19,117 bases of DNA from Bryobacterales bacterium (GTDB taxonomy: Bacteria; Acidobacteriota; Terriglobia; Bryobacterales; Bryobacteraceae): NCBI GenBank assembly GCA_003142355.1, contig PLMF01000413.1, positions 1 to 19,117 of the forward strand, given 5' to 3'. Below are positions 2,668 through 18,751 of the stretch, piece after piece (positions within the stretch are counted from its first letter, which is position 1; every line of letters begins with the position of its first letter). The notes under the pieces are model-generated. The model was given only the letters and a program-made list of their open reading frames with translations, ran no database searches and was not told the origin of the DNA. The translations under genes and the position numbers were made by a program.

Positions 2668-2672
2668 GTCAC

Positions 2673-2680
2673 GGAGAAGG
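2673..2680 (+). promoter_or_regulatory. Ribosome binding site
   Basis: GGAGAAGG sits 2 bases before the ATG at 2683 (core GGAG 6 bases away) and lies after the upstream stop. It supports independent initiation at 2683. Confidence 0.6.
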
Positions 2681-2682
2681 AA

Positions 2683-3597
2683 ATGCGAATCTGCCCATTG
2701 CTCGTTCTTTGTTTGCCGGCATTCGCCCAAACCACCACAGTGACTGGCACGATCAGGGACCCTGCCGGCGATCCGCTCGCGGGGTCGTGCTCCATCCAGG
2801 CGGTGGGGCCATTCACCGCGGCGGCGGGCTGGCGCGTGATCGGGGCGCCAACGGTAGTCACTTTCTCGGGCGGATCATTCAGTGTCGGGTTGGCGCCCAC
2901 CGACAGCGGGACGCCCTCGGGGCAGTACTACAAAGTGACGTGTGCCGTGCCGAAGCAGACCGTCAACGGCCACTCGGTGGGGCCGTTTTCCTGGGGGCCG
3001 CGCTACTGGCTGGTCCCGACCAGCGCCAGCAGCCTCGACATCGGAACGGTCGAGTTGACCTCGCCGCCCCCAAGCCCTTCGTGGACGATACTCCCGCAAC
3101 AGATTGCGGGTGCGCTCGGCTACTCCCAAATGCCCGCTCTCAGCTACACGGCGACGGTCAGCACCGCCGAATACACAGACGGCTCCATCACCGTGACGAA
3201 CGGTTCCGACGAGGTCACCGGGGTCGGGACCGCCTGGACCTCGTCGATGACGGGTTACTGGCTGGCCACACAGCCCTGTCTCAGCGCTTATAGATTCAGT
3301 TACGTGTCGGCGACGTCGGGCACGCTGGACCGGCCCTACACTTGCGCCTCGGGGACGATGCGGGGTGTGCCATCCCCTCCCGGCACGCCGTACGGACACG
3401 CCTATGCATTGACGCAGTCCACTTACGTGGCGTCGTCCACGCACGGACTCGGAACCGTGCACATCATCCTGCAGTGCTTCGACGCCGGCGTTACGGCACA
3501 GAGAATCCAACCGGCGGCGGTTCTTGTGTGGCCGAACCAGGACGTCGAGATCCTGTGGCGTAGGGCCACAACCGGATCATGCATCCTCAACCGATGA
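2683..3597 (+). CDS. Exported phage-like protein with N-terminal carboxypeptidase-regulatory-like segment
   Basis: 304 aa. It starts with a short signal peptide (MRICPLLVLCLPAFA, then Q), so the product is probably exported. Residues about 18-40 (TVTGTIRDPAGDPLAG) match the start of a carboxypeptidase-regulatory/Cna-B-like beta sandwich, common in secreted acidobacterial proteins. Around residues 174-191 there is GSDEVTGVGTAWTSSMTG, a G.G.GTAW signature often seen in phage structural and tail proteins. The C-terminus (QDVEILWRRATTGSCILN) has the 'TG.cvin' ending also seen in phage tail-fibre-like proteins. The start at 2683 is supported by a Shine-Dalgarno and the signal peptide. The stop overlaps the next gene's start (ATGA). 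Function is unproven; a virion or tail-associated or surface role is inferred from motifs and neighbours. Confidence 0.7.
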   Translation: MRICPLLVLCLPAFAQTTTVTGTIRDPAGDPLAGSCSIQAVGPFTAAAGWRVIGAPTVVTFSGGSFSVGLAPTDSGTPSGQYYKVTCAVPKQTVNGHSVGPFSWGPRYWLVPTSASSLDIGTVELTSPPPSPSWTILPQQIAGALGYSQMPALSYTATVSTAEYTDGSITVTNGSDEVTGVGTAWTSSMTGYWLATQPCLSAYRFSYVSATSGTLDRPYTCASGTMRGVPSPPGTPYGHAYALTQSTYVASSTHGLGTVHIILQCFDAGVTAQRIQPAAVLVWPNQDVEILWRRATTGSCILNR

Positions 3598-4088
3598 CGC
3601 GGTGGATTCGATTCGTAGCGCCCGCTCTGTTGGCAGTCTCGCTGGGCGCGCAGGCGCGCGTGGCAGGTGATGTGGCTACTGGCGGGCTGGGGCTGTCCAG
3701 CGCGGATGATCGCACGCTGGAGGCTCTGCGGTTTGCGGGAACTTGCCTCAAGACCTGGCAGGACCGCCTCGCGCTCGGCAATTGGCATGTATCGGTCGAG
3801 ATCGCGCGAGCCAAGGACCTGCGGCCGGGGACCGTCGGCCAGGTTGAGATCGACTACCCGGCGAGGAGGGCAGTCATTCAAGTGCTCGACCCTGTCGACC
3901 ACAGGCTGCCGGAAGATCAAATGCTCGCTCTGGTCGAGTCGGTCGTAGTTCACGAGCTCGTCCACATTAGCCTCACCCCGGTGGTCGGAGCGCTGCGGGG
4001 CGTCGAGTCAACCGACAGCGAAGAAGAGCGCGCGGTGCGTCACATTACCGCCGCGCTGTTGGCGGCGCAAAAGAATGGTCACAACTGA
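3594..4088 (+). CDS. Exported HExxH putative zinc metallopeptidase-like protein
   Basis: 164 aa from the ATG at 3594, which overlaps the previous stop as ATGA; an in-frame ATG at 3579 would add five residues. The N-terminus (MTRWIRFVAPALLAVSLGAQA) reads as a signal peptide. The mature part has an alpha/beta segment (NWHVSVEIARAKDL, then a strand VGQVEIDYPARRAVIQVL). Next comes a helix ending in VVHELVHISL, a canonical HExxH zinc-binding motif, and a downstream acidic helix DSEEERAVRHI that could supply a third ligand. Small HExxH proteins with the same plan (beta strand with an IDY.-type segment, HELxHxxL, acidic helix) are common, mostly uncharacterised, in phage genomes. Here the apparent secretion signal is unusual. 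Catalysis is inferred from the motif only. It is translationally coupled to both neighbours and overlaps the next gene by 14 bases. Confidence 0.7.
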   Translation: MTRWIRFVAPALLAVSLGAQARVAGDVATGGLGLSSADDRTLEALRFAGTCLKTWQDRLALGNWHVSVEIARAKDLRPGTVGQVEIDYPARRAVIQVLDPVDHRLPEDQMLALVESVVVHELVHISLTPVVGALRGVESTDSEEERAVRHITAALLAAQKNGHN

Positions 4089-4425
4089 AACCTGCGCCTG
4101 CGGACGGTGCCGGCAATGCCGCTTCCGGGAGCGCGAGCGCCTGATGCGCGAGGCGCGCCAGCGAAAGCCGCAGCGACCAGAGCCGCGGCAACGTCCGTCC
4201 AGGGGCCCACTCTGCACCTGCGGAACATGCCGCAAATGCATCCACCGGGCCGCCGTTCGGAAAAGCAGACAGCGTGTCCCCGATGCTTTCCTTGCGCTCG
4301 ACCAGCCCAGGCCGTTTAATCTTTCCGAGTTTGCGCGAGGAATTTACGAGCTCGAGCTGGCCACGATTTGTCGGGCGGTGCGCGCATGGCGTTGTCGTGT
4401 CGGACCACTGCGGGCGGATGGCTAG
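4075..4425 (+). CDS. Small basic protein with twin CxCGxCRxC motifs
   Basis: 116 aa. Two zinc-knuckle-like motifs, CACGRCRQC (residues 7-15) and CTCGTCRKC (residues 47-55), are separated by a very Arg-rich linker (RERERLMREARQRKPQR). The C-terminal half contains a short helix (FNLSEFARGIYELELATICRAV). The two Cys clusters with identical spacing suggest two structural zinc sites and nucleic-acid binding. Short CxCGxCxxC proteins of this kind occur among phage genes of unknown role. The start overlaps the upstream gene by 14 bases and there is no clear Shine-Dalgarno, so coupled translation is likely. An alternative frame (4107-4319) is open but lacks the paired Cys pattern. Function unknown. 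Confidence 0.6.
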   Translation: MVTTETCACGRCRQCRFRERERLMREARQRKPQRPEPRQRPSRGPLCTCGTCRKCIHRAAVRKSRQRVPDAFLALDQPRPFNLSEFARGIYELELATICRAVRAWRCRVGPLRADG

Positions 4426-4706: not shown

Positions 4707-6245
4707 TCAGCACTCGCTCGAATCAACGTTCTCCACCTTCTCCAACAATCGATACCGGTAGTCCACGTCGGCAAACTCAAACGGCAACATCTTGGCGAGC
4801 TGATCCGTCACTCGCTTCCGCATCTCAACCGCCAGGTGTGCCAAAGGAGCAATCTCGTCAGGGCCGATGGTTTCCGGTGTGCGATGCGGATGAAGCAGCT
4901 TCAGCATTCCCGCCACCGTCTTCTTCACTGCATCCTGATTGCGCCCTGTCATGTTCCCCAGGTCAATCCAGCGATTAACGTGGGTCTGGAAATTCAGGCG
5001 CCGCAGCTCTGCGAAGATCTCCGCCATGTAATCGGTTAAGAAGCCATATCCAAGGGCATAGTTTTCCGGCCGGATCTTCGGCATCTCCCATCCGGGCAGA
5101 TACGCGTGAATTCGATCTAGGAACGCCGGATCACGCAACTCCAACGGGAGGACCTCGAAGAGGTGCTCATACCGCGACTCCGGCTGGCGCCGTTCGAGGT
5201 CGGTGTCGATGTTTCCACCGAGCACTATTGAACAGGACGCGGAAAACTCTTGATCTCCACGGCTGAACTTACCAGTCTGCATGTAGTCTTTGAGCACGCT
5301 GATGCTGGCCTCGGCGTCATCGAAGCGCGTGTTAGCAATTTCGTCAAAGAACACGACATGCTTCAGCCCAATCACGCCAAGCTTACGTGTGGCCTTGTTG
5401 TAGAACAGAGTGGCAGGCGTCGCCTTACCGCCGGAGACGACAAATGACCTGTTAGATGTGTTTCGGAAGGTGTAGGTTTTACCTGTTTCGCGCGGCCCCA
5501 GCTCGATGAGGTTGTAGTTCGCCTCGACGAACGGCAACAAGCGCAACAACATGAGCATCTTGATGCGCCGCTCGAAACGAGCCGGATTGAACCCGATCGA
5601 TTGTATTAGGAGATCGATCCACTCGTCGTCCGTAAACGCCGGCCGCTTCTCGATGAAGTCGGCCAAGTTCAGACGTGTGTATTGAAGTGGGGTGAATTCC
5701 CTGATGTAGAACGGAAATTTCCTTCCTTTAACCTCGTACGTCGCGTCGTATTCGATCTCAAGCGTTCCCCAGGCACCGCTAGTCAGCAGCACGTCTCCAA
5801 ATTGAACCAACACCTTCGGTGCAACCCTGACCGTGTTGTCGCCCAGGGCAGGCACGTCCGCCCAGTAGTGGTCCTTAGCCTGGTCCAGTCGGACCGAGAG
5901 CTGTCCCAACAGTGTGTACTGACCCTTTTCCTTGATGCGACTCTTGATTAACTCTTTCTTGGAGCTTTCGGCATAGTGCTCGCTCAGAATTTTGTCGATT
6001 TTTGCCTGGCCGGCGACCGGGTCCGTGGGTTTCACATATCGACTGACCAAGTACTCCATCACAAACCGCGGAAACTCCTTGTAAGCTTCGTTCCAGCGTG
6101 TTAACGGTTTCAGAATTACTCGATCACCAAGAAGCGCCAGAATCTTTTGATCCAATGGCGTCCCGGCTGTAGTCGTCGCCGCAGGAGATGGCGCCGACTG
6201 CGCACCCGGCCCGCCATTATGAATTGGATCTGGAGTGTCAGCCAT
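4707..6245 (-). CDS. brxL: BrxL-like AAA+ protein of a BREX system, lacking the Lon protease domain
   Basis: 512 aa. BrxL proteins are AAA+ ring ATPases required for BREX phage restriction. Visible motifs: Walker A GPRETGKT (residues 250-257), Walker B VVFFDE (297-302), a sensor-type Asn in VLGGN (345), and the family-typical arginine-rich stretch RDPAFLDRIHAYLPGWEMP (371-389). The N-terminal 240 residues include a predicted DNA-binding-type region (KEFPRFVMEYLVSRYV) and a beta barrel-like segment (150-200). Canonical BrxL is about 660-690 aa and carries a C-terminal Lon (S16)-like domain. Here the protein stops about 125 residues after the arginine-rich stretch, and no in-frame Lon sequence follows before the convergent genes. 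Shorter BrxL-family members may exist, so this may be a lineage form rather than a broken gene. It is the last gene of the operon, 14 bases after the pglZ stop, with a weak GAGAG ribosome site. Confidence 0.88.
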   Translation of the reverse strand: MADTPDPIHNGGPGAQSAPSPAATTTAGTPLDQKILALLGDRVILKPLTRWNEAYKEFPRFVMEYLVSRYVKPTDPVAGQAKIDKILSEHYAESSKKELIKSRIKEKGQYTLLGQLSVRLDQAKDHYWADVPALGDNTVRVAPKVLVQFGDVLLTSGAWGTLEIEYDATYEVKGRKFPFYIREFTPLQYTRLNLADFIEKRPAFTDDEWIDLLIQSIGFNPARFERRIKMLMLLRLLPFVEANYNLIELGPRETGKTYTFRNTSNRSFVVSGGKATPATLFYNKATRKLGVIGLKHVVFFDEIANTRFDDAEASISVLKDYMQTGKFSRGDQEFSASCSIVLGGNIDTDLERRQPESRYEHLFEVLPLELRDPAFLDRIHAYLPGWEMPKIRPENYALGYGFLTDYMAEIFAELRRLNFQTHVNRWIDLGNMTGRNQDAVKKTVAGMLKLLHPHRTPETIGPDEIAPLAHLAVEMRKRVTDQLAKMLPFEFADVDYRYRLLEKVENVDSSEC

Positions 6246-6259
6246 TCAAGTCTCTCTCA

Positions 6260-9046
6260 CTAAATGTCATCAAAGCTCTTAAGTGCATCTGTTTCCAGCT
6301 TCGTAGCCTTGGCCTGGACTGTAACGGGAATGGTAACGAGGCCATCCAGTGCATCCCGCCACTTGCTCTTCAGATCCGTGTGTCGCAGGCGGATGGTGAT
6401 GCCGGTGAGCGTGCCCTCGGGGTCCATTCCGCCATTTGCCCTTTGGCGGTATTTGCCCTCCAACTGGCATGTTGCCTTAAATGCGGCGCCGGGCGCCAGG
6501 GCGCCAGGTTGGGAGAGTAACTCATCCCCGAGATTATTGCGTACAGTGAGATGGAAGTCGACTTGGACGTTGCCTGTATTCCGCACGCTAAACACGTAGG
6601 CAACAACGTCGTCTTCGGGCACCACGATGCCGAGTGTGCTCAGATCTTCCAGTTCCGCTCGGGCCTCTTTCTCCGTCACTCGTTTCAACAGGTAGCCTGG
6701 AACAGCGATTTCCGCAAAAGAAAACCCACCGTGCCAGTACCGAGGCATGGATTTTGAGCCTTCTCTGCGGAACCACTGTCGCCCCACAGCCAGCCAGTGC
6801 TCGACACCTGCGGCCATCACGGCGAGAGCATTCGGGGCTGCGGCAGGCCGGAATCCCTTGGCATATCGATAGCGCACATCTTCCTGGAGTATACGTCCGG
6901 CGGTCTGCGCCTCTTGATCGCTGACAACCACCGCATCGCACGTAAGCAGTTCCGTAAAGCCGTGGTCAGAAGTCACCAAGACGGTGTCCTCTGGACGGAT
7001 TCGCCGCAACAGGTCGTCAAGAATACCCCTTACGCCTTGTGATTTGTCGCCGAGGATCTCCGTTCGTATCTTGTTGTTGAACGCAGCGAGGTCCCCTCGG
7101 AATTCATGGCATTCATCCGATATCGGATAGATCAAAACGTTCACGTCAGCCGCTTCAGCATCAGTGAAACCCATGATCATGCGCGACTTTGTCGTGTCCG
7201 CCTCTGTCACAAATCGGAGCTTCTTCTTTGCTTCCTGGGCGGTCAAACCCAGGTTCTGAGCAACGAGAGTCGCTTCATCTTTGGTGGCCGTGCCCTTGTA
7301 GCCAAGCCAGCTGCTCGGCAGGCAGCCGGCAAAGAGGCTGGTCCTGGCAATCTGCGTATAGCTGGGCAGCACGCAGAAGCTGCTCTGGCCTTGAAGGCTA
7401 AAATGCTCGGCAAGTAGTGGCTGAACGACCGTCTCCCAGGTGTCGAATCGCATTCCGTCAAAGAGCAATACCCATGCGCGCCCATTGTCGTTTCCGAGAG
7501 TAATCTTAGCAACCCGGTCTCCGATTAGCCTCTTCAGAAGTCCGAGGGTGCTGCGAGGTCCTTTGGCGAAACCCTCGGGATCTGCAAGGACGAACGTCGC
7601 AAGAGAATGGTCCAGTTGGTCCAGCCGGGTACGGACGCGATCCTTCAGCGAGGCAGTGCCAGGAGCAAGATCATCCTGTCCACCAAAGAGATAGTTCCGT
7701 GCCGCCTGTCCCAAATCGCTATCGCCGCTCTCTTCGATATCGTGGAAAGCCCTGGCCAACTCCAACTCCATACGGTGTTGTCCATGCTCCACGTACCAGT
7801 CCAATACCGCCTCGGCGTTCGCGAATAAAGGCAGATTCGTAGACAGGCCTTGCTCGATTCTCCGGATTGCTCGGGCAAAACGTATCAGGGCAAGGCACTG
7901 GGCCCCTCGGCTCGATAGATTCTCGGTGGCCGTGGTCATCACGGGGTGTTTGCTGAGCAGTTCCACCCACGCGAGCTTCTCAGCACTAGGGGCTTTGCAG
8001 AAAATGCCGAGGGCGTGCCGCAATTGGTAATGGAGAATCACTGAAGGGGCATCAGGCAGAGGTACGAAAGGAGATCCATCACCACCTGAAGGCAAGAGCA
8101 AACCGACACGTTCCATTCGGCCAGTAGTGAGAAAGACGTCTGCCAGGGCTTCTATTGTCGCCCAAGCCTTTGCGTCAGCAGCAAGCAGCTTTATTGCCTG
8201 CAGGCCAAAGGTGTCCATCTTGGCCAGGGGCGTGTCCAGTGAGAAGATGTGCAACCCAGCCAATTGGTTGGACGGATTCTGGAGCTTCAATTGGTCAGCG
8301 GCAAGGCGTAGAACCAGGTAGGCCGCCAGTTCTTCACCCTCGATGTCCAGCCAAAACAGTTGGTCTTGGACTTGTGGGCGCGCAGCTTCCCGCACGACTT
8401 CCCGCACCGTGCCGGCATCCGCCTGCTGCTGCCCGCGCCGCAAAATCACGCGGCAGGCGTGCGCCAGAAACTCGGCCGGATCTATCTCGTCCGGCCAGAG
8501 ATCTTCCAGCGTCCATTCCGGCCGCTCCGCCAGGAGTACCAGCGCGGCGACCTGCCCGCGTCCCCAATCGTCGGGCCGCCCCCACCGCTGCACTATCTTC
8601 GCGGTAGCCGCTGGCACGTTTTCAAGCCTCTCCAGTAAGGCCCCTTTGTACTGCCGAAGCTGGGCAACCGGAAAGTTGATTTTGGGGCAGATGCGACGGA
8701 AGAAGGCAGGGACCGAAAGGTCGAGAGCCGGTCCGGATTCATTTCTCGCGAGGATGTCCGTCACGTACGAGACATCTACCTTGTCAACCCCGAGTCCACG
8801 GCTCATCACGAGGACAACCCGGTCCGCCTTCGAGGCCTTACGCAACGACAGCCGAAAAGCCAGATCGTCACCCCGAAAGACCACAGCGTTCCACGCTCTG
8901 CCCTTCGTATCCTGCACGACCGATTTGGACAGTAGCCCGAAGTCTCCGAGAAGCCGATCCGAGTCGATGGCGACGGCTACGCGGGCGCTCACAGGCCGAC
9001 TACTCAGCCAATTGAGGAACACCTCGGCAGGGGGTTGCGCTTTCAT
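6260..9046 (-). CDS. pglZ: PglZ, alkaline-phosphatase-superfamily BREX protein
   Basis: 928 aa. PglZ is the hallmark BREX component, with an alkaline-phosphatase-type metal-dependent fold. Residues 525-537 (WVLLFDGMRFDTW) give the first metal ligands (D530, D535). PSYTQIARTSLFAG (561-574) carries the nucleophile-region Ser/Thr, VTSDHGFTEL (691-700) the conserved Asp-His pair, and YWHGGFSFAEIAVP (770-783) the last His. The catalytic set thus looks complete. The N-terminal 500 residues are helical and family-specific. After the phosphatase core there is a beta-sandwich tail (FSVRNTGNVQVDFHLTVRN). Length is slightly above the ~830 aa of type 1. The start ATG overlaps the methyltransferase stop as ATGA and has GAGG four bases upstream, so the two are translationally coupled. 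Its partner in known systems is the methyltransferase PglX. Confidence 0.92.
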   Translation of the reverse strand: MKAQPPAEVFLNWLSSRPVSARVAVAIDSDRLLGDFGLLSKSVVQDTKGRAWNAVVFRGDDLAFRLSLRKASKADRVVLVMSRGLGVDKVDVSYVTDILARNESGPALDLSVPAFFRRICPKINFPVAQLRQYKGALLERLENVPAATAKIVQRWGRPDDWGRGQVAALVLLAERPEWTLEDLWPDEIDPAEFLAHACRVILRRGQQQADAGTVREVVREAARPQVQDQLFWLDIEGEELAAYLVLRLAADQLKLQNPSNQLAGLHIFSLDTPLAKMDTFGLQAIKLLAADAKAWATIEALADVFLTTGRMERVGLLLPSGGDGSPFVPLPDAPSVILHYQLRHALGIFCKAPSAEKLAWVELLSKHPVMTTATENLSSRGAQCLALIRFARAIRRIEQGLSTNLPLFANAEAVLDWYVEHGQHRMELELARAFHDIEESGDSDLGQAARNYLFGGQDDLAPGTASLKDRVRTRLDQLDHSLATFVLADPEGFAKGPRSTLGLLKRLIGDRVAKITLGNDNGRAWVLLFDGMRFDTWETVVQPLLAEHFSLQGQSSFCVLPSYTQIARTSLFAGCLPSSWLGYKGTATKDEATLVAQNLGLTAQEAKKKLRFVTEADTTKSRMIMGFTDAEAADVNVLIYPISDECHEFRGDLAAFNNKIRTEILGDKSQGVRGILDDLLRRIRPEDTVLVTSDHGFTELLTCDAVVVSDQEAQTAGRILQEDVRYRYAKGFRPAAAPNALAVMAAGVEHWLAVGRQWFRREGSKSMPRYWHGGFSFAEIAVPGYLLKRVTEKEARAELEDLSTLGIVVPEDDVVAYVFSVRNTGNVQVDFHLTVRNNLGDELLSQPGALAPGAAFKATCQLEGKYRQRANGGMDPEGTLTGITIRLRHTDLKSKWRDALDGLVTIPVTVQAKATKLETDALKSFDDI

Positions 9047-11943
9047 AGGACCTCGATCTCGTCAAAAAGAGTTGGGCCTTCGGCCTTGCGCTTTCGAACC
9101 CGTACGGCCTCTGCCTGCGCCTCAAGTTCATCCGCGATCTTCTGCGACGCGACGCCGGCTTGTTTCTGCGCCCGATGAAACTCTTGCTGCGTGACCTTCT
9201 CCCGCAGGACGCTCTGAAACAGTCTGGCAACTAACCGGTATCCTTTCTCCCGCTCAAATCCACGCAACGCAGCAATGGCTTGAGTGTCACTATCTTCGAT
9301 AGCCCGACAAGCCTGAAAGAGTACGTCTATCCAGTCGCAACGCTCACTATCACTCGTATTTCGTCTAAGGCTTCCCGACACATAGCGTTCGGCGTCGTGC
9401 AAAACGCGAATGGAGCGATCATCGTTCATCTTTTCGCGCTCATCATCCGTTGGCTCGCGCCAGCGATTGCTGTCCGTGTCTCGCCAAAAATTCTCCGACA
9501 GCAGATCTTCCAATACCAGATTCTGGGAAACCTCGCTTGATAACAGGCCTGTCGCCCTCATCCATAGCGGTTTAAGTTCTCCGAGGAGCACGGAGCTCGT
9601 TTGGAGCTTCTGTCGAAGCCACTGAATGGCGGTCAGCTCGTCGACGATTCTGATCTCTTCCTCAATTAAGTAAGGAGAGCCAAATTCGGTACCTGCTGCC
9701 TCCCCTCGTAAGTACCAACGTTGCCCAACCTTCCGAAAGTAGCGCGCGCAAACGCGCTCAATAAAAGGGAGGTTCAGCTTTTGAACATTTACGCCTTTCG
9801 GAATCAACGCATTCATCAACATGCTGTTGATTGTTGCAGTTGTGCGATGATCGTGCCCGTACTTTCCGGAATCTGCCTGTATCTTTGCGGGAAGCTCTGT
9901 CAGAAATGATCTAACAGCATCCGCGACTGCGTGCTCCAAATCGCTATCCTCGACTCCAAATGTGGTTCCCAAAGCCGTCGGCTTAAGGGCATTGAAGAGA
10001 ACGTCCTTATCCACGACGTCCGAAACGCCGGTTGTACTTCGGATCTGTGCGTAGGTCCGTTCCACCTTGTCAAACACCAACATGTTTTGAATCTGAAAGC
10101 CGCACTTAACCAACCCAGCTTTGATGACTTCGAACACCTTTCCATCCGAGTTATTAAACTCGACTGTGGCCCATCGCCCCGGCTTGAGAATTCTGTAAAT
10201 CTCGCTGAATGCCTGATCCATCAAAGTTGCGTAATCGTCCAGACGTTTATAGCCACCATCGACGGGACGGTGCATAATGGCTTCTTGGGCTTCGTCTGTA
10301 AAGCGGCCAAACCATGCTTCCCACATGAACGTCACTTCGGAGTAATAGATATTTGAGCCGAAAGGAGGATCCGTGAAGACGTAGTCCACAGACTCCTTCG
10401 GGATGCTGTGCAGGTTCGTAGCCGAACCAAGGTGAACGAAGCTGCCCTCCGGTAACGCCGGTCGCGCAGTGGCAACTGCACTTAGATAGTTTTCAACAGC
10501 TTTCCCGAATACCTTGAGGACATTGGTTTCAACGGTCTCTGAAGCGATGTGGAGAGTACCGCTGAGTTGCTCCCCCGGTTTGGTTCCTTTCATGCGGCGA
10601 AGGCGACTACATCGCATGACCTGAGACGTGAAGCAGAACTGAAGTGCAGGACGCGGCGATGGATTCACTCGGCCGATCGCGCCCCACAGAAGTGCCATCG
10701 CCCAGAGGTTGCGGTGTGTAAAAAAGTCGCTGTACGTGTTGATATTCTTGCCAGCAAGAGAATCGCGTCGGTATCGAGGGCCTTGTTTGTTGACTGTGAC
10801 CGAGGGAAACCAGCATGGGATAGATTGTCGCCGCAGATTCTCGATAAATTCACGCTGCCGCTGTGACACGGGTCTTGTGCCCCTGAGTCTTTTCGCCGCA
10901 ATTCCTCCATTAGCGTTCACGATGCCTTCGTACTCGTAGACTTCCTCCACCGGGACGATGTTGATGCGAGGAACGCGGCCTTTCATCCAGCGCTCGTTGC
11001 AGTGCGGGCAACGCAAAAACGCATTGTTGCCGTCGTCTTCGGCTTTGTCGTCTGTGCCCCTTGCTACGATCTCCTGGCGACAACCCCGAGCGACCCTGCG
11101 CTTGATCATGACTCGCTTGCCAGTTCTGGGATTAGTGCGATCCGTGGGTTCCTCGACCGTCTTGAATCCTTCACATCGGTAGACGTCTGACCAGACGACG
11201 TAGCTGAGGCTCGCTGGTATGCGTATCCAATCGCATTCGGGCGGGGATGCGGTGGGGGCGCCAGCCTGTCGATCATTGGGAGGCCGGCAACCCAAGTACT
11301 GTTCCACAACCTCCGTACCAACCAGTTGCCACTCCCCTGGCTCAGAACTACTACGAGACATTAACATCTGCGAAGTGTCTCCTAGCCTAGCTGCAACCTC
11401 GGGGCGAGATGGTGTGTAGAGATCACGAGCGGGCTCGAAGTGATCCGTTGAATACAGCCCTTCAAGCTCGTCCTTGACTTCAGCGAGGATCGTGGCGAAC
11501 GCCTGCTTCACGAGATCGGGAGCGACGGGATGAGTGTAGTTGTAGCTGAGATGGCATGCGGCTGGCGACAAGTCGCTCAAGAGACCTACCCTAGCGCCCG
11601 GTTGGGACGAAGGATTCTCAGAAAGGATCGCCGGGTCGGGGTCGCTGCACATCTGACAGGCAACGCCCGTCATTCCCGAGCCGCAAAAAGGGTCGACGAC
11701 AAGATCTCCTGGGTTCGTGTAGTGCAGCAGCAGGCCAACTATTGATTCCGGAGGAACCTTGGTGAGATAGTAATGCAAGTTGTAGAAAGCGCTCCGGCCC
11801 GGGGATTTTACGTCAGATGAAAAGGGTGGCAGGTCATACGTGTCAGTCGCGGCGTCGTATCCACGCGCGTGCTGACCCACAAAGTCAGCAGTAGCCGCTT
11901 CCTGCTCTTCCGGTGTCATCAGGACGGGATTACTTGACAACAC
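9043..11943 (-). CDS. pglX: BREX DNA methyltransferase, DUF1156/PglXI-like (N6-adenine type)
   Basis: 966 aa from a GTG start. The AdoMet motif DPFCGSG is at residues 84-90 and the catalytic motif TDPPFGSN at 524-531. An interior of about 430 residues separates them, and a helical C-terminus follows the methylase core. DPP(F/Y) is the signature of amino-methylating (N6-A or N4-C) enzymes; in BREX these place the host self-mark on adenine. Length and motif order resemble the DUF1156-type methylases called PglXI in type 3, not the ~1200-aa PglX of type 1. A zinc-ribbon-like segment shows only one intact half: CPHC (312-315) pairs with a degenerate YRCEGF near 255. The GTG (11943) overlaps the ATPase stop (TAGTG) and is chosen because GGAGGTG lies 7 bases upstream; the ATG at 11919 has no ribosome site. 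Confidence 0.88.
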   Translation of the reverse strand: MLSSNPVLMTPEEQEAATADFVGQHARGYDAATDTYDLPPFSSDVKSPGRSAFYNLHYYLTKVPPESIVGLLLHYTNPGDLVVDPFCGSGMTGVACQMCSDPDPAILSENPSSQPGARVGLLSDLSPAACHLSYNYTHPVAPDLVKQAFATILAEVKDELEGLYSTDHFEPARDLYTPSRPEVAARLGDTSQMLMSRSSSEPGEWQLVGTEVVEQYLGCRPPNDRQAGAPTASPPECDWIRIPASLSYVVWSDVYRCEGFKTVEEPTDRTNPRTGKRVMIKRRVARGCRQEIVARGTDDKAEDDGNNAFLRCPHCNERWMKGRVPRINIVPVEEVYEYEGIVNANGGIAAKRLRGTRPVSQRQREFIENLRRQSIPCWFPSVTVNKQGPRYRRDSLAGKNINTYSDFFTHRNLWAMALLWGAIGRVNPSPRPALQFCFTSQVMRCSRLRRMKGTKPGEQLSGTLHIASETVETNVLKVFGKAVENYLSAVATARPALPEGSFVHLGSATNLHSIPKESVDYVFTDPPFGSNIYYSEVTFMWEAWFGRFTDEAQEAIMHRPVDGGYKRLDDYATLMDQAFSEIYRILKPGRWATVEFNNSDGKVFEVIKAGLVKCGFQIQNMLVFDKVERTYAQIRSTTGVSDVVDKDVLFNALKPTALGTTFGVEDSDLEHAVADAVRSFLTELPAKIQADSGKYGHDHRTTATINSMLMNALIPKGVNVQKLNLPFIERVCARYFRKVGQRWYLRGEAAGTEFGSPYLIEEEIRIVDELTAIQWLRQKLQTSSVLLGELKPLWMRATGLLSSEVSQNLVLEDLLSENFWRDTDSNRWREPTDDEREKMNDDRSIRVLHDAERYVSGSLRRNTSDSERCDWIDVLFQACRAIEDSDTQAIAALRGFEREKGYRLVARLFQSVLREKVTQQEFHRAQKQAGVASQKIADELEAQAEAVRVRKRKAEGPTLFDEIEVL

Positions 11944-14900
11944 TAGCCAGCACCTCCGTCGTTGCCATGGAAGCGCAGGAATACTCGCACACGCTTGCTT
12001 GCGGCGTGCCTGTTCTTAGCGTCCCTTACAGCCGTCTTTAGCAGCTTTGTGAACTCAGCGATGGCTTCATCGACACGGTCTTCCTCAATAGCCCCGACCT
12101 CCTGAATAATGGGCTCCAAAGCAACTTCCTCGTGAACGAGATTCTCGTCATACAGGAGCTTGCGCAAAAAGGCGACCAAATCGTCGGTCAGCACATTCGC
12201 GAGTTTATCGGCATCCGCTAGTTGCACAATCTGCAAGAGTTCTTTGAGACTGGTGTTCTTCTCGTCGGCGGCTTTCTTAAGGATCGCGGCAATCGTAGCG
12301 TCCTTGAACCGCTGAAACCGGTCAGTCAACCCGGCTTCGACCTTGGCCTGCAGGTGTTTGAGTTCCTGGTGTGGTAAGGACTCCTTCGGGGTCCATCTGC
12401 ATCTCGGACAGAGAGGAGACGACTGGTCCACTGCTGCTTCCATGGCGTCAGGACAACTGTACAGAGTGGTTTCCAGTTTGAGCAAGTCGGCTCCGGCGTG
12501 CATTGCCGTCCCAAGAGGTGGCCCCAACTCGATGATGGTATTCATTTTGTCTAGCGCACGCGCTCGCGGACGCAACGCATCGAACGACTTCCTCAATTCC
12601 GCCAATGCCTCGTGGTGTGCACGGTGCGCCTTGCGATACGCGTGAATGTAGTTGGTCTTCCATTTCTGAAAACCGTCCATGTGGACCGCAATCAGAGATG
12701 GCTGTTTCAGGTATGAATCTAGACTCAACATTGTGAGCAGCGAGGTCCGATTCAGCTCAACCCTGCTGTCGACCTCACAGGCACCGGAGAGATAGTCGAA
12801 GGCCTGGCTGATTTGGAACGCCTGGTCGCGCAATGTTCGGGCGTTCTCATATTCAGCAAAGGCGACCGCGAAGGCGTCCTTGTTGGCGTAGCTCTCGCGA
12901 ACTGCGGCATCGAACTCCTGATAGCTGCCGACTGTGACCAACCCGTTCAGTCGGGCGAGAGTTTCAATCAGCTCCTTCGGGATTGCAGAGCTCAGCTTCG
13001 ACGAAAGGCTTGTAAGGCTCTTCTCCACTTCGGGCAACTCGGCTTTGAGCTTCGCTAGCACGGCCAGGAGTTTATCGTTGCGAGTCAGTTCCTCGTCAGG
13101 AGAGCTTGCCGGCTTGAAGTCGGGATCCAGCACGCGTGCGTACTCCAGGACTTCGTTCCAGCCTTTTTGAATTGATCTAACCATTCGCGCGCCAAGCATT
13201 GCTTTGTCGAGCTTGGCATTCCACTCGCAAAGGGCCAGAGTGTGGGGAGTAAGGCGGTTTCCAGGCAGCGCCTTACCATTGGTCATGGTGATGGGCGAGC
13301 CCGGATTCAAAACCACCTCGAAGCCGCCAATTTTGACTTGGGCTAGCGCGTATAGCGAGACCATCGCTTCGGTGAGGCCGTACGGGGCGCGGCAGAACGC
13401 CGCCTTCAAGTCGGCGAGCGGTACGTCAGCCTGGCCTTGGAGGTGCTCGCGCATCTTTCCTAACGCCTGGGAGCTGTCCGGCTTGAAGTCGGTGGGATGA
13501 GACTTGGCTACCAACTCCAACCCAACGGCGAAATTCTGAACGGCATCCTTTTCGGCCTTAGCCGGCTCCTTCTGAAATAGGCCGGCATAGAGTTTTCGCG
13601 CATCCGCATCGGTAAACTCTTTCTTCAGACCTTTAGGATCGAACAGTGGCGTATCGTAGGATTTGTCCAGCAGTCGTCCAGCGAGATCCTCCTCGCGATC
13701 CTTAACGAGCTTGAAGATCTCCACGGCAACAATACCGTAGCCTTTCTGAGTAATCACTTTGCCGCGACGGTATTCGTCCTGCTGACACTTCAGAATGGCT
13801 TTCACGGCATCGCGGCGCTTGCCGTCGGCATACTCACGCAGGGTGCTCTGGTTGGGCGCCGCGCAGTTCCGCTTCATTTGCTCGGCGGCCAAAAGATCGG
13901 CCAAAGCCTCACGACTGTCGTCCGAAAGTGTGTCGGGCTGGCAGACTGCGATTCGTGCATCGGCCAAGGCCGCCGTTATCTTGCCATCAGCTATATCTGG
14001 TTTTCCCGTAAGGTAGACCAGCCGAAAGTGTTCATCGGCATTCTTGATCTCCTCGCCGAACTCGTCGCGCCAGCGATCAGAGACTACGACCTCGCCGCCG
14101 TATCGAACCTTGTGTACTCGTCCGGTCGAGGCCGCAGCATGGTGAGGTAAAAGATATGCGGGCGGTTTGCTCTGTGCCTTATCCTGCGCACTGCGTTGGT
14201 CATTCGGCCGGTAGTCGCTGAAGATTCCGCCATTCACGCCCAATTCAGCCTGTGCTTCAGGCGTGATGTCCGGCAGTTGCCAAAACAGGGAGTCGAGCCA
14301 CTTGGCGTCCTGCCCTTTCAAATCTTCTTTTGCCTTCTTCTTCAGGGGTGCGAAGTATTTCGCGGGAGTCTCTTGTGCGGCCGTGCCCTCATAGGAAAAG
14401 ACGGTGACCTCTTTGCCATCGCGAGTCTTCTTGTCCTGCCGCAATGGGAAACCATTTTGGACGAGTTTGCCGAGGATCATTTCCGTTTGGGCAGTGGAGC
14501 CTACGGCGTCATCAGATAGCCATGCTGCTTCGGCAACTTCCTGCGCAACCAGACCATCGCGCAAGTTGTCAGGTAGGCTGATTCCCCAGAGGAACAGTGT
14601 CTCCATGACGCGCTCAGCCTGGGCGCGCTCCTCCGGCGCCAGGTCCACTTGCGGGAGTTGTTCCAGTGAGCCGAGGAGATTCTGATATGCCTCCTTGTAA
14701 TGCTCGTGGGTGAGCCCTTTTCTCAATTCATCGCTTCGGATGATATCCGACAGCGTAAGCAGCCGCTTTCCCTTAAGCAACGTTGCGTCCGAAAGGGTCT
14801 GCCATGCCATTCGGATGGCAGAGCGAGCGGTGGGAAGGCTGTGTTGTTCGGCATTCTGCGTGATCCGGCGCATCACCTCGAAGCAGCGGGGCTGGAACGG

Positions 14901-16007
14901 GAAGATTGCCGTGAAATAGTCCAGGGAGATGTTCGACTGCTTGATGAAGCGGTACTCTTTTCGGCAGTAGTCGTAGTAGTCCTTGACGTCGGCCGAGGCG
15001 CCCTTCAGCAGTTCCCGACAGCGAAAAGAGACGATCTCCCCGAAATCCCCTTTATTCTTGTCGGCCAGCAAGTACAGGGGCATGAACCGATCACCCTCCG
15101 CACCGCCGGAAAGCTTCTGAGGCATATCGCCTTGACTGGCCACGAGCGTTAGGACGTTGTAGTGCTCTGTCGGCAACACGAATGCTAGTGTCTCCAGGAT
15201 CTCCTCGTCCTCCGCATAGGCTGCCGTCCCAGGAACATGCCGGTCCTGCCAAGACCGGAATTCATCCACCACAAAGGCAATGCCGGTGTAGCCGCCCAAC
15301 TTGGTGATCTGCTCGTAGATGTGGGCGAAGCGGTCTTTGTACCTGCCCTTAAGCCGGCCTTCTGGAAGCTTTGATCGAACCAGCTCTTGCCCAAATTTCT
15401 TCGGACCATTCGCCGAGCGGAACTCTTCGGGCGAGGACTTGTGCTCTCGAGAATAGAATGAGCGTACTGCAGCTCTTTCATCCTCGCTTGCTTCGTTCTC
15501 ATACCACTCATCTGCTAGCTCGACTGATGTGAGCTTAACCTGTGCATCCAGCTCAGGCGCGAACGCCTTGATACTTGCGCGGATCTGTTCCTCGAAGACC
15601 CGCATAAGGCTGTCGTGCCCACTAGATTCGCCCATTCCACGCAGGGAGAACGCGACCGGAAACAGCTTCACCTTTTCGAGCGCGTCATGGTAGTCGTGCT
15701 TGAGTTCTTCGTCCGTGAGGGAGGTCCAGACGGCCTCATCCTTCCATACCAGGAGATCGATTAAAGTGCCGAGAAAGTGCGTTTTGCCTGCGCCGTACTC
15801 GGCCTGAACCCAGAAGCCCTGGCCCTTCGCATTGACGACGCAATCGAAGATACGCTTGAAATGCGCTCGCAACGATGGAGTGAAATAGTACTGGAGAACC
15901 GTCTGAGCGGCGTTGCCTTTCTGAATAAGCTTCGCCAGGCTCGGCGTGGTATCCGGCTCCGGCTTCACAGCGATGATCTTGTTTAGCTCTCGGAATCCCT
16001 TGGCCAT
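11943..16007 (-). CDS. brxC: BrxC/PglY-like giant P-loop ATPase
   Basis: 1354 aa from the ATG at 16007, which begins MAKGFREL and lies 2 bases after the upstream stop with GGAG about 13 bases upstream. An upstream in-frame start at 16100 would run 90 bases into the preceding gene and is rejected. Walker A is AEYGAGKTH (69-77) and Walker B is IAFVVDEF (243-250). This is the very large ATPase subunit found in every BREX type (BrxC/PglY, about 1200 aa). The size and helical C-terminal two-thirds fit, although it is longer than type-1 BrxC and may be nearer the DUF6079/PglY branch. A Cys cluster near residues 1185-1205 (C-x14-C-x2-C) may bind zinc. It is coupled by one-base overlap to the methyltransferase. 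The proposed role is energy-driven assembly or remodelling of the BREX complex on DNA, inferred from the family. Confidence 0.9.
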   Translation of the reverse strand: MAKGFRELNKIIAVKPEPDTTPSLAKLIQKGNAAQTVLQYYFTPSLRAHFKRIFDCVVNAKGQGFWVQAEYGAGKTHFLGTLIDLLVWKDEAVWTSLTDEELKHDYHDALEKVKLFPVAFSLRGMGESSGHDSLMRVFEEQIRASIKAFAPELDAQVKLTSVELADEWYENEASEDERAAVRSFYSREHKSSPEEFRSANGPKKFGQELVRSKLPEGRLKGRYKDRFAHIYEQITKLGGYTGIAFVVDEFRSWQDRHVPGTAAYAEDEEILETLAFVLPTEHYNVLTLVASQGDMPQKLSGGAEGDRFMPLYLLADKNKGDFGEIVSFRCRELLKGASADVKDYYDYCRKEYRFIKQSNISLDYFTAIFPFQPRCFEVMRRITQNAEQHSLPTARSAIRMAWQTLSDATLLKGKRLLTLSDIIRSDELRKGLTHEHYKEAYQNLLGSLEQLPQVDLAPEERAQAERVMETLFLWGISLPDNLRDGLVAQEVAEAAWLSDDAVGSTAQTEMILGKLVQNGFPLRQDKKTRDGKEVTVFSYEGTAAQETPAKYFAPLKKKAKEDLKGQDAKWLDSLFWQLPDITPEAQAELGVNGGIFSDYRPNDQRSAQDKAQSKPPAYLLPHHAAASTGRVHKVRYGGEVVVSDRWRDEFGEEIKNADEHFRLVYLTGKPDIADGKITAALADARIAVCQPDTLSDDSREALADLLAAEQMKRNCAAPNQSTLREYADGKRRDAVKAILKCQQDEYRRGKVITQKGYGIVAVEIFKLVKDREEDLAGRLLDKSYDTPLFDPKGLKKEFTDADARKLYAGLFQKEPAKAEKDAVQNFAVGLELVAKSHPTDFKPDSSQALGKMREHLQGQADVPLADLKAAFCRAPYGLTEAMVSLYALAQVKIGGFEVVLNPGSPITMTNGKALPGNRLTPHTLALCEWNAKLDKAMLGARMVRSIQKGWNEVLEYARVLDPDFKPASSPDEELTRNDKLLAVLAKLKAELPEVEKSLTSLSSKLSSAIPKELIETLARLNGLVTVGSYQEFDAAVRESYANKDAFAVAFAEYENARTLRDQAFQISQAFDYLSGACEVDSRVELNRTSLLTMLSLDSYLKQPSLIAVHMDGFQKWKTNYIHAYRKAHRAHHEALAELRKSFDALRPRARALDKMNTIIELGPPLGTAMHAGADLLKLETTLYSCPDAMEAAVDQSSPLCPRCRWTPKESLPHQELKHLQAKVEAGLTDRFQRFKDATIAAILKKAADEKNTSLKELLQIVQLADADKLANVLTDDLVAFLRKLLYDENLVHEEVALEPIIQEVGAIEEDRVDEAIAEFTKLLKTAVRDAKNRHAASKRVRVFLRFHGNDGGAG
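11951..11957 (-). promoter_or_regulatory. Ribosome binding site fixing the GTG start of the methyltransferase
   Basis: GGAGGTG on the minus strand, inside the end of the ATPase gene and 7 bases before the GTG at 11943. It decides between GTG 11943 and ATG 11919 in favour of the former. Confidence 0.65.
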
Positions 16008-16009
16008 AT

Positions 16010-16477
16010 TTACGCTTTCTCTCCGAATACCTGCTTTACCATTGGTTCTTGGAAGTAGCCGAGCAACCGGTCGCTGTCGCACGCCACTTCTTCCGGCCAC
16101 TGGGTTTCCTCCAATGTCCGTTCCAGCAGCAGAATCACCATGGAAAAATCGCCGCAGAACCAGTCATAAAACTCCCTCAGACCCACCGCATACCTCGCCA
16201 GGAGACCGATTGACGTGACAACGAGAACCACCCGCATTCCAGAGCCAGTAGGAATGGCCTGGAGTCGCGTCGACAACGCGCTAACCAGGAACTGCCGTGT
16301 TTCTTCGTCATCCATTGGCAGTTTGTCTTCGTCAAAAAGGTCGAGAAGGTCGAGGGTTGCATGATGAACTGGCCCTAAGAGTTTTGCCAAGGCGGTTTCT
16401 GTGCCGACCCACAACACGACCTCCTTTTCCCAGGTTCGCTGCTCGACCAGCGACTTCAACTCAGCAGGTGGTTTCAT
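16010..16477 (-). CDS. Small BREX-operon protein in the BrxB/BrxF position
   Basis: 155 aa. It starts at an ATG that overlaps the upstream stop (ATGA), and its stop lies 2 bases before the ATPase start. An alternating hydrophobic strand KEVVLWVGTE (18-27) is followed by an acidic helix (TLDLLDLFDEDKLP). A second strand MRVVLVVTSIGLLARY (81-96) and a third FSMVILLLER (111-120) follow. The pattern is of a degenerate P-loop-like Rossmann core: the WVGTETALAK stretch sits where a Walker A would be but has no GxxGK(T/S). In type 1 this slot holds BrxB (DUF1788, about 200 aa); in type 3 the small gene before brxC is BrxF, a P-loop protein of about this size. A nucleotide-binding-dead BrxF relative is the best guess; BrxB is the alternative. 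Position and coupling make a role in the BREX complex likely. Confidence 0.75.
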   Translation of the reverse strand: MKPPAELKSLVEQRTWEKEVVLWVGTETALAKLLGPVHHATLDLLDLFDEDKLPMDDEETRQFLVSALSTRLQAIPTGSGMRVVLVVTSIGLLARYAVGLREFYDWFCGDFSMVILLLERTLEETQWPEEVACDSDRLLGYFQEPMVKQVFGEKA

Positions 16478-17373
16478 AGCCGGGCCTTCCGGATCAAGAG
16501 CTCATTCAGGGAATAGCATGTCGTCACCTGTTCAAGCTGGTCGGCGACGATGTATTTTCCAATGAGCTTGGCGGCATCTGCTTCACGCATGACCGCCCTA
16601 ACCGAATCCTCAGATTTATATCCGAGGTATTTCCAGAATGGATGGGACAAAATACGACTGATCTCGACAGTGCGCGGCCCCTCCGCGGCGAAAAGGTAAT
16701 GAACCAAGATGAGGGTCGAGGTCTTGTTTGGGACAAGGCTATTCAATCTGTCAGGCTTTCCCCGCTCGCGGGCGAGAAACCCAAGGCGCATGAGGTTCGA
16801 TTTTAGGCGTTCTTGCGTCTTTGGCGGAGGATCTTGACCCAGAGTACTTCGGAGTACCCGATCAAAGTACGTGGCCGGGATCAGCATCCCGTTCTCTAAG
16901 GGAAACAGAGCGGATTCCACACACATCCCGACAATTGGCTCGGCTGTCAAATAGAGGTACCGGAGGATGTCGGACTCAATCTGTTCGTCTTCGTAGGCGA
17001 TCCAAACCCGGCGGGTCAGGCAATCGATGTCGCCGGGAAAGAACCACCGTATGACAGATTGTGCGTACCGGGTCCGCGTCTCCAGGCTGTTCTGCCCAAA
17101 CTGCGCCACCAGAAGCCGCTGAAGGTCATCCAGTGACGTGGCATTTGCCGAGAGCTTGGCAGCTTCGAGGCCTTCTTTAAACAGGAGGTCCTGCAAAGAC
17201 TTGCGCTCGGATGCATTCCCCTTCGCGCCATGCCGGTGCGCACGATCAAAAGCCGTCGCCAGAAGTGCGGACTGATCCGCACCTGGGATTTCGCCGGGAG
17301 TATCTGGCCACAAAGATGACTGGCCGGCGTTTCGCGGTCCGTCTTCCGGCGGTGTTTTCGAGTGATCGCTCAT
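16474..17373 (-). CDS. brxA: BrxA-like (DUF1819-like) first protein of the BREX operon
   Basis: 299 aa from the ATG at 17373 (MSDHSKTPPED); a GTG at 17436 would add 21 residues. Neither start has a good Shine-Dalgarno. The N-terminal 45 residues are Pro/Gly-rich and probably disordered. The body reads as helical, with segments LETRTRYAQSVIRWFFPG (97-114), RRVWIAYEDEQIESDILRYL (121-140), a winged-helix-like ERLKSNLMRLGFLARERG (188-205), and a conserved-looking tail ILSHPFWKYLGY and DQLEQVTTCYS. This succession of an R-x-R-Y/F segment, helical middle and winged helix fits BrxA, a small DNA-binding BREX protein of about 200 aa. This one is longer at both ends. First gene of the operon; its stop overlaps the next start as ATGA. 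Assignment rests on position and pattern, not on a decisive motif. Confidence 0.7.
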   Translation of the reverse strand: MSDHSKTPPEDGPRNAGQSSLWPDTPGEIPGADQSALLATAFDRAHRHGAKGNASERKSLQDLLFKEGLEAAKLSANATSLDDLQRLLVAQFGQNSLETRTRYAQSVIRWFFPGDIDCLTRRVWIAYEDEQIESDILRYLYLTAEPIVGMCVESALFPLENGMLIPATYFDRVLRSTLGQDPPPKTQERLKSNLMRLGFLARERGKPDRLNSLVPNKTSTLILVHYLFAAEGPRTVEISRILSHPFWKYLGYKSEDSVRAVMREADAAKLIGKYIVADQLEQVTTCYSLNELLIRKARL

Positions 17374-17477
17374 ATTCAGGCGCCCAAACCGGCGCTGCGA
17401 GCCGGGTGGTCTTGGGCGGAGTTCTTGCGCGCGCACATAGCTATAATCCCAACGCTTTCAACGGGTTGTGAGTTCGA

Positions 17478-18053: not shown

Positions 18054-18128
<75 letters not shown>

Positions 18129-18199: not shown

Positions 18200-18751
18200 T
18201 CAAATCATCTCGTTGAGCAGCTCGGGACGCGGGCGCGGGATCACTACCTTGTTCACCAGCAGGCCCTTCTGGCCCACCACCTGCGCGGCGGCGTCTACCG
18301 CGCTCTCCACCGCCGCTACGTCCCCTGTCAACGTCACGAACGCCTTCCCCCCGAGCGCCATTGCCAGGCGGATTTCGATCAGTTGCACGTTGGCCGTCTT
18401 CACCGCGGCGTCCGCGCCTTCAATCAGCGAGGCCACCGAGAATGATTCCACGATGCCGAGCGCTTCCAGCGCCTCAATCTTCGTCGCGCCGCTGATGGCC
18501 GGGAATACCGATTCGTGCAGGTTCGGAATCACGAACGAGTCGATCACCGAAAACTTGCCCGCGCTCACACCCGCCGAAACCGCCGCCTGCACCGCGCCCA
18601 CCTCGCCCCGCACCATCACCATGTATTTGCCGGAGCAAATCGAACGCGCCAGCACCATTTCCACGGCCGCCGCCTTCAGCATCGCGTCGCTCGCCTGGAA
18701 CCCGGCGGCGATGCTCGACAGCTCGATCAAACCGATTGAATTGTTCGCCAT
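18200..18751 (-). CDS. pduT: Bacterial microcompartment shell protein, tandem-BMC (BMC-T), PduT-like
   Basis: 183 aa with two BMC domains: residues about 4-90 (SIGLIELSSIAAGFQASDAM) and 97-180 (ALGIVESFSVASLIEGADAA). Proteins of this type form pseudohexameric trimers in the shell of metabolosomes. The sequence tracks PduT closely, including ARSICSGKY with a Cys at position 39, where PduT has the Cys that ligates a [4Fe-4S] cluster at the trimer pore, and the C-terminal NKVVIPRPRPEL. It starts 3 bases after the stop of the upstream PduS-like gene. PduT and PduS are thought to pass electrons across the shell. This gene appears to be the last of its operon, with tRNA-Asn about 70 bases downstream. 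The substrate of the compartment cannot be told from this window. Confidence 0.93.
   Translation of the reverse strand: MANNSIGLIELSSIAAGFQASDAMLKAAAVEMVLARSICSGKYMVMVRGEVGAVQAAVSAGVSAGKFSVIDSFVIPNLHESVFPAISGATKIEALEALGIVESFSVASLIEGADAAVKTANVQLIEIRLAMALGGKAFVTLTGDVAAVESAVDAAAQVVGQKGLLVNKVVIPRPRPELLNEMI

Follow-up and report, generated by a model that had tools for sequence, protein, structure and literature searches.

A candidate BREX lineage combining type-1 gene order, a BrxXI-like methylase and BrxL in a Bryobacterales contig

How should a bacteriophage exclusion (BREX) operon be classified when it has the gene order of type 1 and its proteins are not of type-1 families? The question is raised by contig PLMF01000413.1 of the Bryobacterales assembly GCA_003142355.1 (19,117 nt; this whole stretch is called the window), which carries a brxA-like gene, a small gene, a brxC-like gene, a methylase gene, pglZ and brxL in this order. 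A first-pass annotation, made from the sequence, had described a mosaic with type-1 gene order (A-B-C-X-Z-L) and parts of other types. Gene calls, profile matches and recurrence across loci bear out the order and the roles, and in trees none of BrxC, PglZ and BrxL groups with its type-1 counterparts. We consider it likely that the six genes encode a complete anti-phage system of the BREX class, belonging to an undescribed A-B-C-XI-Z-L lineage, provisionally a seventh type, which would mark the host's own DNA by methylation and attack unmarked DNA through PglZ and BrxL. This reading draws on gene content and order, recurrence, intact catalytic motifs, predicted folds and phylogenetic separateness.

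Six genes fill a minus-strand operon

The operon occupies positions 17373 to 4707 of the minus strand and consists of six tightly packed open reading frames (ORFs), whose presence, place and strand were all confirmed:

16474..17373, minus strand: brxA-like gene, 299 aa from the ATG at 17373, or 320 aa if the GTG at 17436 is used
16010..16477, minus strand: small gene in the brxB/brxF place, 155 aa, predicted P-loop-less AAA+-like fold
11943..16007, minus strand: brxC-like AAA+ ATPase gene, 1354 aa from the ATG at 16007 (longest ORF from 16100)
9043..11943, minus strand: BrxXI-like (PglXI-like) DNA methylase gene, 966 aa, GTG start
6260..9046, minus strand: pglZ, 928 aa
4707..6245, minus strand: brxL, 512 aa, without the C-terminal Lon-like part

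Neighbouring genes overlap (ATGA, TAGTG, ATGA) or are separated by gaps of 2 nt and 14 nt, as in a coupled operon. Since the six genes fill the operon, no helicase, PglW kinase or BrxP lies inside it, which agrees with the first-pass annotation. The protein lengths listed there (966, 155, 1354 and 512 aa), the methylase motifs DPFCGSG and TDPPFGSN and the lack of a P-loop in the small protein are likewise all seen in the ORFs.

Assignment of the proteins to BREX roles

Profile matches assign BrxL and PglZ, and more weakly the BrxC-like protein, to putative BREX roles. BrxL matches Pfam BrxL_ATPase (379 bits) and BrxL_N (90 bits) and NCBI TIGR02688 (467 bits, cut-off 329); it aligns to residues 4–470 of the solved BrxL 8emc (679 residues) and stops before the Lon-like part. 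PglZ matches the Pfam PglZ domain at 40.8 bits (cut-off 25) and PADLOC PglZ at 37 bits. The D, T, D-H and H-G-G residues of the PglZ metal site are conserved in all 45 aligned rows. According to the accessible text of PMC12205998, threonine T538 of type-1 PglZ is required for nuclease activity, and the conserved threonine may be its equivalent, being matched by motif rather than by alignment. The BrxC-like protein matches DUF6079 weakly (32.1 bits, Pfam cut-off 23), within residues 1053–1309 only, and PADLOC BrxC at 29 bits, with Walker A (AEYGAGKT) and Walker B (FVVDE) intact. A search of its profile for a sequence match in the PDB gave none, and relatives were found neither in viral_contigs, scanned with two peptide patterns, nor in phages. 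Because profile-based callers see BrxL and the methylase and barely register BrxC and PglZ, such systems are probably undercounted.

On PADLOC PglXI the methylase reaches 413.8 bits, compared with 1286.6 for a type-3 methylase; it scores 297 on a type II methylase model and 64.4 on Pfam N6_N4_Mtase. The first-pass annotation had called it a DUF1156-type enzyme; no DUF1156 match was found in Pfam at E 1e-3, so this assignment falls. DUF1156 marks the DUF499 'BR' methylases, which branch apart from the window methylase. Motif I (DPFCGSG) is followed by an insert whose cysteines align to the type-3 finger, and then by motif IV (DPPF). This is the layout that the main text of a recent survey ascribes to BrxXI (PMC12839542).

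The BrxA-like and 155-aa proteins are assigned to BREX roles by predicted fold only. The model of the former (predicted local distance difference test, pLDDT, 84.8; residues 11–54 disordered) matches SspB and 3bhw, which is also matched by a type-1 DUF1819 brxA (E 5e-6), suggesting the BrxA-like multi-helix-turn-helix (HTH) DNA-binding protein expected of a BREX system; its profile was searched against PDB sequences and gave no match. The 155-aa protein has neither GxxxxGK[ST] nor GK[ST], hence no P-loop, and its model (pLDDT 85.5) matches origin recognition complex (ORC) and other AAA+ chains. AAA+-like is also the fold class given for BrxB and BrxF in the survey's main text (PMC12839542). 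Profile comparison of the 155-aa protein with BrxB, BrxF and type-4 small proteins was empty, and comparison with PDB sequences gave no link (best E 0.33). BrxB and BrxF are not among its listed fold matches, which for BrxB excludes nothing.

The arrangement recurs across phyla

Relatives of the operon were sought by a BrxC-alignment scan of genome contigs with two exact peptide patterns, so the 25 loci obtained are a lower bound. They form two clades. Clade A (13 loci, best-segment BrxC identity 52–71%) comes from a deltaproteobacterial bin, Schlesneria, Verrucomicrobia, Bryobacterales, Syntrophaceae and Methylomirabilis; hosts of clade B (12 loci, 29–31%) include Chloroflexi, Cyanobacteria, Myxococcota and a haloarchaeal bin. 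Three pairs of loci share a genome (L003 and L020; L019 and L023; L016 and L025).

All 22 loci that extend far enough upstream have a brxA relative immediately before brxC (L003, L011 and L023 start within brxC). The small gene is matched in 21 of these 22, the exception being L021, where a 165-aa ORF without BLAST match takes its place. A methylase gene stands between brxC and pglZ in 14 of the 18 loci holding both (that of L024 is split in two), with hosts from Verrucomicrobia, Planctomycetes, Acidobacteria, Methylomirabilis, Syntrophaceae, Chloroflexi and Myxococcota and one haloarchaeal bin. Finally, a brxL relative follows pglZ in all 13 loci whose sequence extends 500 bp or more past that gene. 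Given this recurrence of brxA before brxC and of brxL after pglZ, the six-gene arrangement is not due to chance.

For BrxC the protein database gave 304 matches, of up to 90% identity, and for the methylase 1655, in searches that scored only candidates sharing most words and listed 120 matches of each. Clade A is rare in sampled species genomes: beyond the centre genome it was absent from all 198, 229 and 198 genomes from the phyla of G004, G009 and G002, respectively, at E 1e-50 and with two or three candidates scored per genome. Among plasmid records the window's BrxC matched a single one, from Halorarius halobius (L026).

Degraded relatives do occur: L006 has a shortened brxC followed by a Schlafen/AlbA protein and no methylase, L015 keeps an 88-residue methylase remnant, and L024 has split genes. 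They would fit a reading of the window operon as a decayed or non-defence remnant, which we judge highly improbable: all six of its ORFs are full length with intact motifs, and close relatives such as the 90% identical BrxC exist.

Several loci carry additional genes. In clade B, L018 (14381–17137, Nodularia) and L021 (5703–9152, Pseudanabaena) have a protein of 918 and 1149 aa, respectively, in the methylase place; both match Sigma70_r4, and that of L021 also matches RNA_pol_A_CTD. These two operons hold no methylase, and their genomes gave no clade-B methylase match at E 1e-10. An extra gene upstream of pglZ is related among the clade-B loci L010, L012, L013, L015, L022 and L024, and weakly to L018 and L021, with Mrr_N or HARE-HTH matches in the three scanned (L010, L012, L013). 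The gene upstream of pglZ in L155, with RNA_pol_A_CTD and Sigma70_r4 matches, is linked to L021 only. Other in-operon additions are a YhcG PDDEXK nuclease (L003), the Schlafen protein of L006 (AlbA_2), an AAA_15/AAA_21 protein with a partner (L115) and two small ORFs in L010 that by eye resemble a HEPN/nucleotidyltransferase pair.

The window group forms clades of its own

We placed the proteins in trees with reference sets hand-picked from fetched loci, covering types 1, 2, 3, 4 and 6, with no type-5 reference. Labels come from annotated records (L029, L030, L031–L033, L159), from passing an NCBI subtype model (L099, L117, L118, L144, L145, L149) or from similarity to other references (L107, L112, L114, L146, L148 and the type-3 rows L140, L141, L147, L152 and L153). 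L113 was kept in the type-1 group though it passes no model (BREX-6 180 bits, BREX-1A 173). L101, L109, L102 and L110 were grouped as type-4/SSP-like by DUF4007 or 3′-phosphoadenosine-5′-phosphosulfate (PAPS) reductase genes; on BREX-4, L101 and L109 score just 29 and 23 bits. Proteins that were cut or split were excluded, e.g., the L024 methylase and PglZ and the L008 and L025 PglZ. For BrxC, PglZ and the whole methylase, quick trees were built, with support from the Shimodaira–Hasegawa-like approximate likelihood ratio test (SH-aLRT) only.

The window group (clades A and B) forms its own clade for BrxL (15 of 35 rows, 100/100, careful tree), BrxC (20 of 51 rows, SH-aLRT 100) and PglZ (15 of 45 rows, 99). 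The type-1 rows, which include the BREX-6 reference, the type-2 rows and the type-3 rows each form a clade without it, and the type-4-like rows together with L116 make up a separate clade (BrxL 100/100, BrxC 99, PglZ 93). BrxC identity to the window is 12–17% for types 1–4 and 18–21% for the outliers L026 and L139. On the NCBI models the window PglZ scores 41 bits for BREX-3, 36.7 for BREX-2 and 32.4 for BREX-1A (cut-offs 250, 200 and 270), with no match at E 1e-3 to the BREX-1B, 4, 5 and 6 models; the PglZ of L017 is likewise below the cut-off of every subtype model. Thus neither outcome that the first-pass annotation had named as grounds for dropping its reading, proteins inside type-1 clades or a standard subtype call, occurred in the trees or with the NCBI PglZ models.

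A divergent type-1 system with an exchanged methylase would explain the same six roles in the same order, a BrxL nearer to type 1 than to type 4 (split 100/100) and a PglZ C-terminal extension of type-1-like length. We regard it as very unlikely: the type-1 clades exclude the window group (BrxC 100, PglZ 99, BrxL 100/99), the BrxC identities to type-1 rows are those given above, and no BREX-1 PglZ model reaches its cut-off. Nor does a single exchanged part describe the operon, because all other genes match the divergence of the methylase.

The alternative of a divergent type-3 system in which BrxL replaced the BrxHII helicase draws on the methylase layout, the PADLOC PglXI score and the PglZ tree, in which the window group joins type 3 and two outliers (SH-aLRT 90); in the BrxC tree it adjoins type 3 with a support of only 58. 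PglZ may on this basis have a broad affinity to type 3. The type-3 system itself is unlikely in our view: the type-3 references of BrxC, PglZ and methylase each form a clade of support 100 that excludes the window group, the BREX-3 PglZ score is far below its cut-off, brxA comes first instead of last, and the small gene has no BrxF profile match.

Extremely improbable, finally, is a type-4 system whose phosphorothioation writer was replaced by a methylase. The short BrxL on which it would build is also found in three type-1-like loci (L105–L107), the type-4-like BrxL and BrxC rows stand apart, the BrxA-like profile of the window's clade A has no DUF4007 match (0.3%), and L116, whose type-4/SSP-like core is accompanied by methylases, falls with type 4 rather than with the window group.

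Sequence identities of BrxC, PglZ, BrxL, the small protein and the BrxA-like protein co-diverge among A and B loci (r 0.69–0.95 over 9–14 loci; at most 2 of 999 permutations as high). On these comparisons the operon appears to belong to a recurrent lineage across phyla rather than to be a local mosaic. It is not a type-1 system in which a single part was exchanged, nor is it plainly a type-3 system that gained BrxL. Of the mosaic proposed by the first-pass annotation, only mosaic-like behaviour of the methylase is seen; a borrowing of parts from types 3 and 4 is not supported for BrxC, PglZ and BrxL, which form their own clades and co-diverge across phyla.

The methylase has a hypervariable recognition region

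The methylase tree (31 rows) recovers clade A (100), a type-3 clade of 10 rows that excludes the window (100) and the BR methylases as a separate group (95). Across A and B loci, methylase identity correlates with that of BrxC, PglZ, BrxL and the small protein (r 0.71–0.79) and less with the BrxA-like protein (0.49; 58 of 999 permutations as high). Within clade A (21–28 pairs, window included) it shows no correlation with any other component (r −0.15 to 0.16), while pairs of the other components give r 0.28–0.82.

The seven other clade-A methylases, compared among themselves in 40-residue blocks, have identities of 0.27–0.42 over window residues 321–520, against 0.49–0.95 over residues 1–320 and 0.61–0.81 over 521–880; the last 90 residues are again variable (0.29–0.45). 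Among the top 53 database matches, 13 carry the window's version of residues 346–505 (0.53–0.91) and 40 lack it (0.26–0.35), and residues 641–930 are about equally close in both sets, except in the incomplete P0127. The recognition region thus appears hypervariable, in discrete alleles, a pattern that exchange of, or selection on, target specificity would leave.

Residues 1–290, about 0.47 identical to the other clade-A proteins, which are about 0.8 identical among themselves, had suggested a two-source chimera. We dropped this idea and claim allele classes of the recognition region alone, because a tree of the N-terminal part, which omits the BR rows, H_L026, O_L158 and B_L010, keeps the window methylase with clade A (78/98).

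Interpretation and proposed mechanism

Several observations weigh against an undescribed, complete BREX lineage. The deep branching order among BREX types is poorly supported, and BrxC and PglZ match known families only weakly (29–41 bits). The small and BrxA-like genes have fold matches of modest TM-score and no sequence-level link to BrxB or BrxA, and the BrxA-like profile matches DUF4007 in clade B (83.7%) and not in the window's clade A. Four of the 18 loci that hold brxC and pglZ lack an intervening methylase (L006, L015, L018, L021); clade-B methylases do not form one clade, that of L010 joining the Halorarius enzyme (89). Because most loci come from metagenome bins, their taxon labels depend on binning, most of all the haloarchaeal label.

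By analogy with type 1, we propose that the BrxXI-like methylase would use its inserted recognition region to mark a sequence motif in the host's DNA. The BrxC-like AAA+ protein and PglZ would make up the core complex together with the small P-loop-less AAA+ protein, which would act as BrxB does, and the SspB/BrxA-like protein may bind DNA and regulate the complex. Upon meeting unmarked motifs on incoming DNA, the complex would switch to restriction, with PglZ as the putative nuclease and BrxL as the DNA motor in the place held by the BrxH helicase in types 2 and 3. A marking and a restriction state of one shared core, with BrxL as motor, have been proposed for type 1 in the accessible text of PMC11842806. 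Assembly of the complex, methylation, nuclease action and phage defence would all follow the type-1 example.

If a second deep lineage follows the six-role A-B-C-X-Z-L plan, it is the plan that is conserved rather than the type-1 sequences. The pairing of a type-3-like methylase with BrxL would also contradict the rule, in the main text of PMC12839542, that BrxL is absent from the type with the BrxXI methylase, and it offers a natural test case for whether BrxL and BrxH helicases are interchangeable as motors. More tentatively, and as a possibility we rather doubt, this could be an ancient seventh type across bacteria and archaea with a detachable, allele-swapping marking enzyme, in which a cyanobacterial subset (L018, L021) does without that methylase family and without self-modification and recognizes foreign DNA in another way. 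The large protein of this subset carries sigma-region-4, RNA-polymerase-alpha C-terminal-domain and HARE-type HTH modules.

Genomic context

The GC content of the operon is 0.56, compared with 0.637 on one side and 0.624 on the other. At third positions it is 0.60–0.68 in the six genes vs. 0.80–0.84 in three flanking genes. These values are consistent with horizontal arrival of the operon. One further feature lies beside it, outside the machinery:

18054..18128, minus strand: tRNA-Asn (ARAGORN and Rfam)

This tRNA gene is a possible island boundary; no att-like second copy of its end was found within the window. Beyond it, at 18200–18751, lies a bacterial microcompartment shell protein gene (BMC, 164 bits). 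The other flank (76–4425, plus strand) encodes a protein that resembles a phage tail component (PF23845, non-contractile tail sheath TIM barrel, 85 bits), and the next ORF has a weak tail-protein match.

Comparison with known systems

The survey PMC12839542 distinguishes in its main text types 1–6, three BR systems and one BRC system, with a small unassigned fraction discarded, and confines BrxL to types 1 and 4, with none at all in types 2 and 3. As the first-pass annotation had supposed, none of the types described there fits the composition of the window operon; members of the lineage may stand unnamed in the supplementary tables. A description of the composition A-B-C-XI-Z-L, or of a BREX type 7, was not found in the accessible text of the open-licence literature searched.

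Compared with type 2, the operon has no PglW, BrxHI or BrxD, its PglZ is below the BREX-2 cut-off, and the type-2 references are separate. Its PglZ is unmatched by the BREX-5 model at E 1e-3 and by the BREX-6 model, and the BREX-6 reference (L149) sits in the type-1 clade. From the DUF499-centred BR (Hma-like) systems it differs in having no DUF499 or DUF1156 match and no helicase in the operon, and the BR methylases are separate (95). The Halorarius halobius plasmid shares a methyltransferase, brxA ('BrxA family protein'), small gene, brxC-like gene and pglZ with the window; it has the methylase first, a metallophosphoesterase after pglZ and no brxL listed, at identities of 18–24%. In the BrxC tree it is a distant outlier of the window lineage.

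Two further loci contain BrxL in other company. On Allomeiothermus silvanus pMESIL01 (L027), brxL lies beside helicase-related, 1338-aa methyltransferase and DEAD/DEAH genes, a neighbourhood that we take to be DISARM-like; this BrxL is 41% identical to that of the window. L116 (G011:C363:8000-27000) is an unusual hybrid with a short BrxL, an SspC-like BrxC (169 bits), PglZ, a 172-aa P-loop-like gene, a 769-aa ORF without Pfam match and a 1322-aa DrmMI/type-IIG-like methylase, and it groups with type 4.

Type-4/SSP-like loci (L099, L100, L101, L102, L109, L110) have the short BrxL and the SspB/DUF4007-like fold of the BrxA-like protein in common with the window. The window operon differs in having a methylase and in the clades of its BrxL and BrxC, and none of its six proteins matches PAPS reductase in Pfam. 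Type 3 (brxF-brxC-pglXI-brxHII-pglZ-brxA; L029, L030, L159) shares the methylase layout with its inserted recognition region and aligned cysteines, and possibly PglZ ancestry (90); the window has BrxL and no BrxHII, brxA comes first, and identities are 25–30% for the methylase and 13–17% for BrxC. Type 1 (brxA-brxB-brxC-pglX-pglZ-brxL; L031, L033 and others) has the same six roles, the same order and the same overall BrxL family. The window proteins tested lie outside its clades, at identities of about 12–17% for BrxC and PglZ and 33–40% for BrxL, with a methylase of BrxXI layout instead of PglX and a BrxL without the Lon-like C-terminus.

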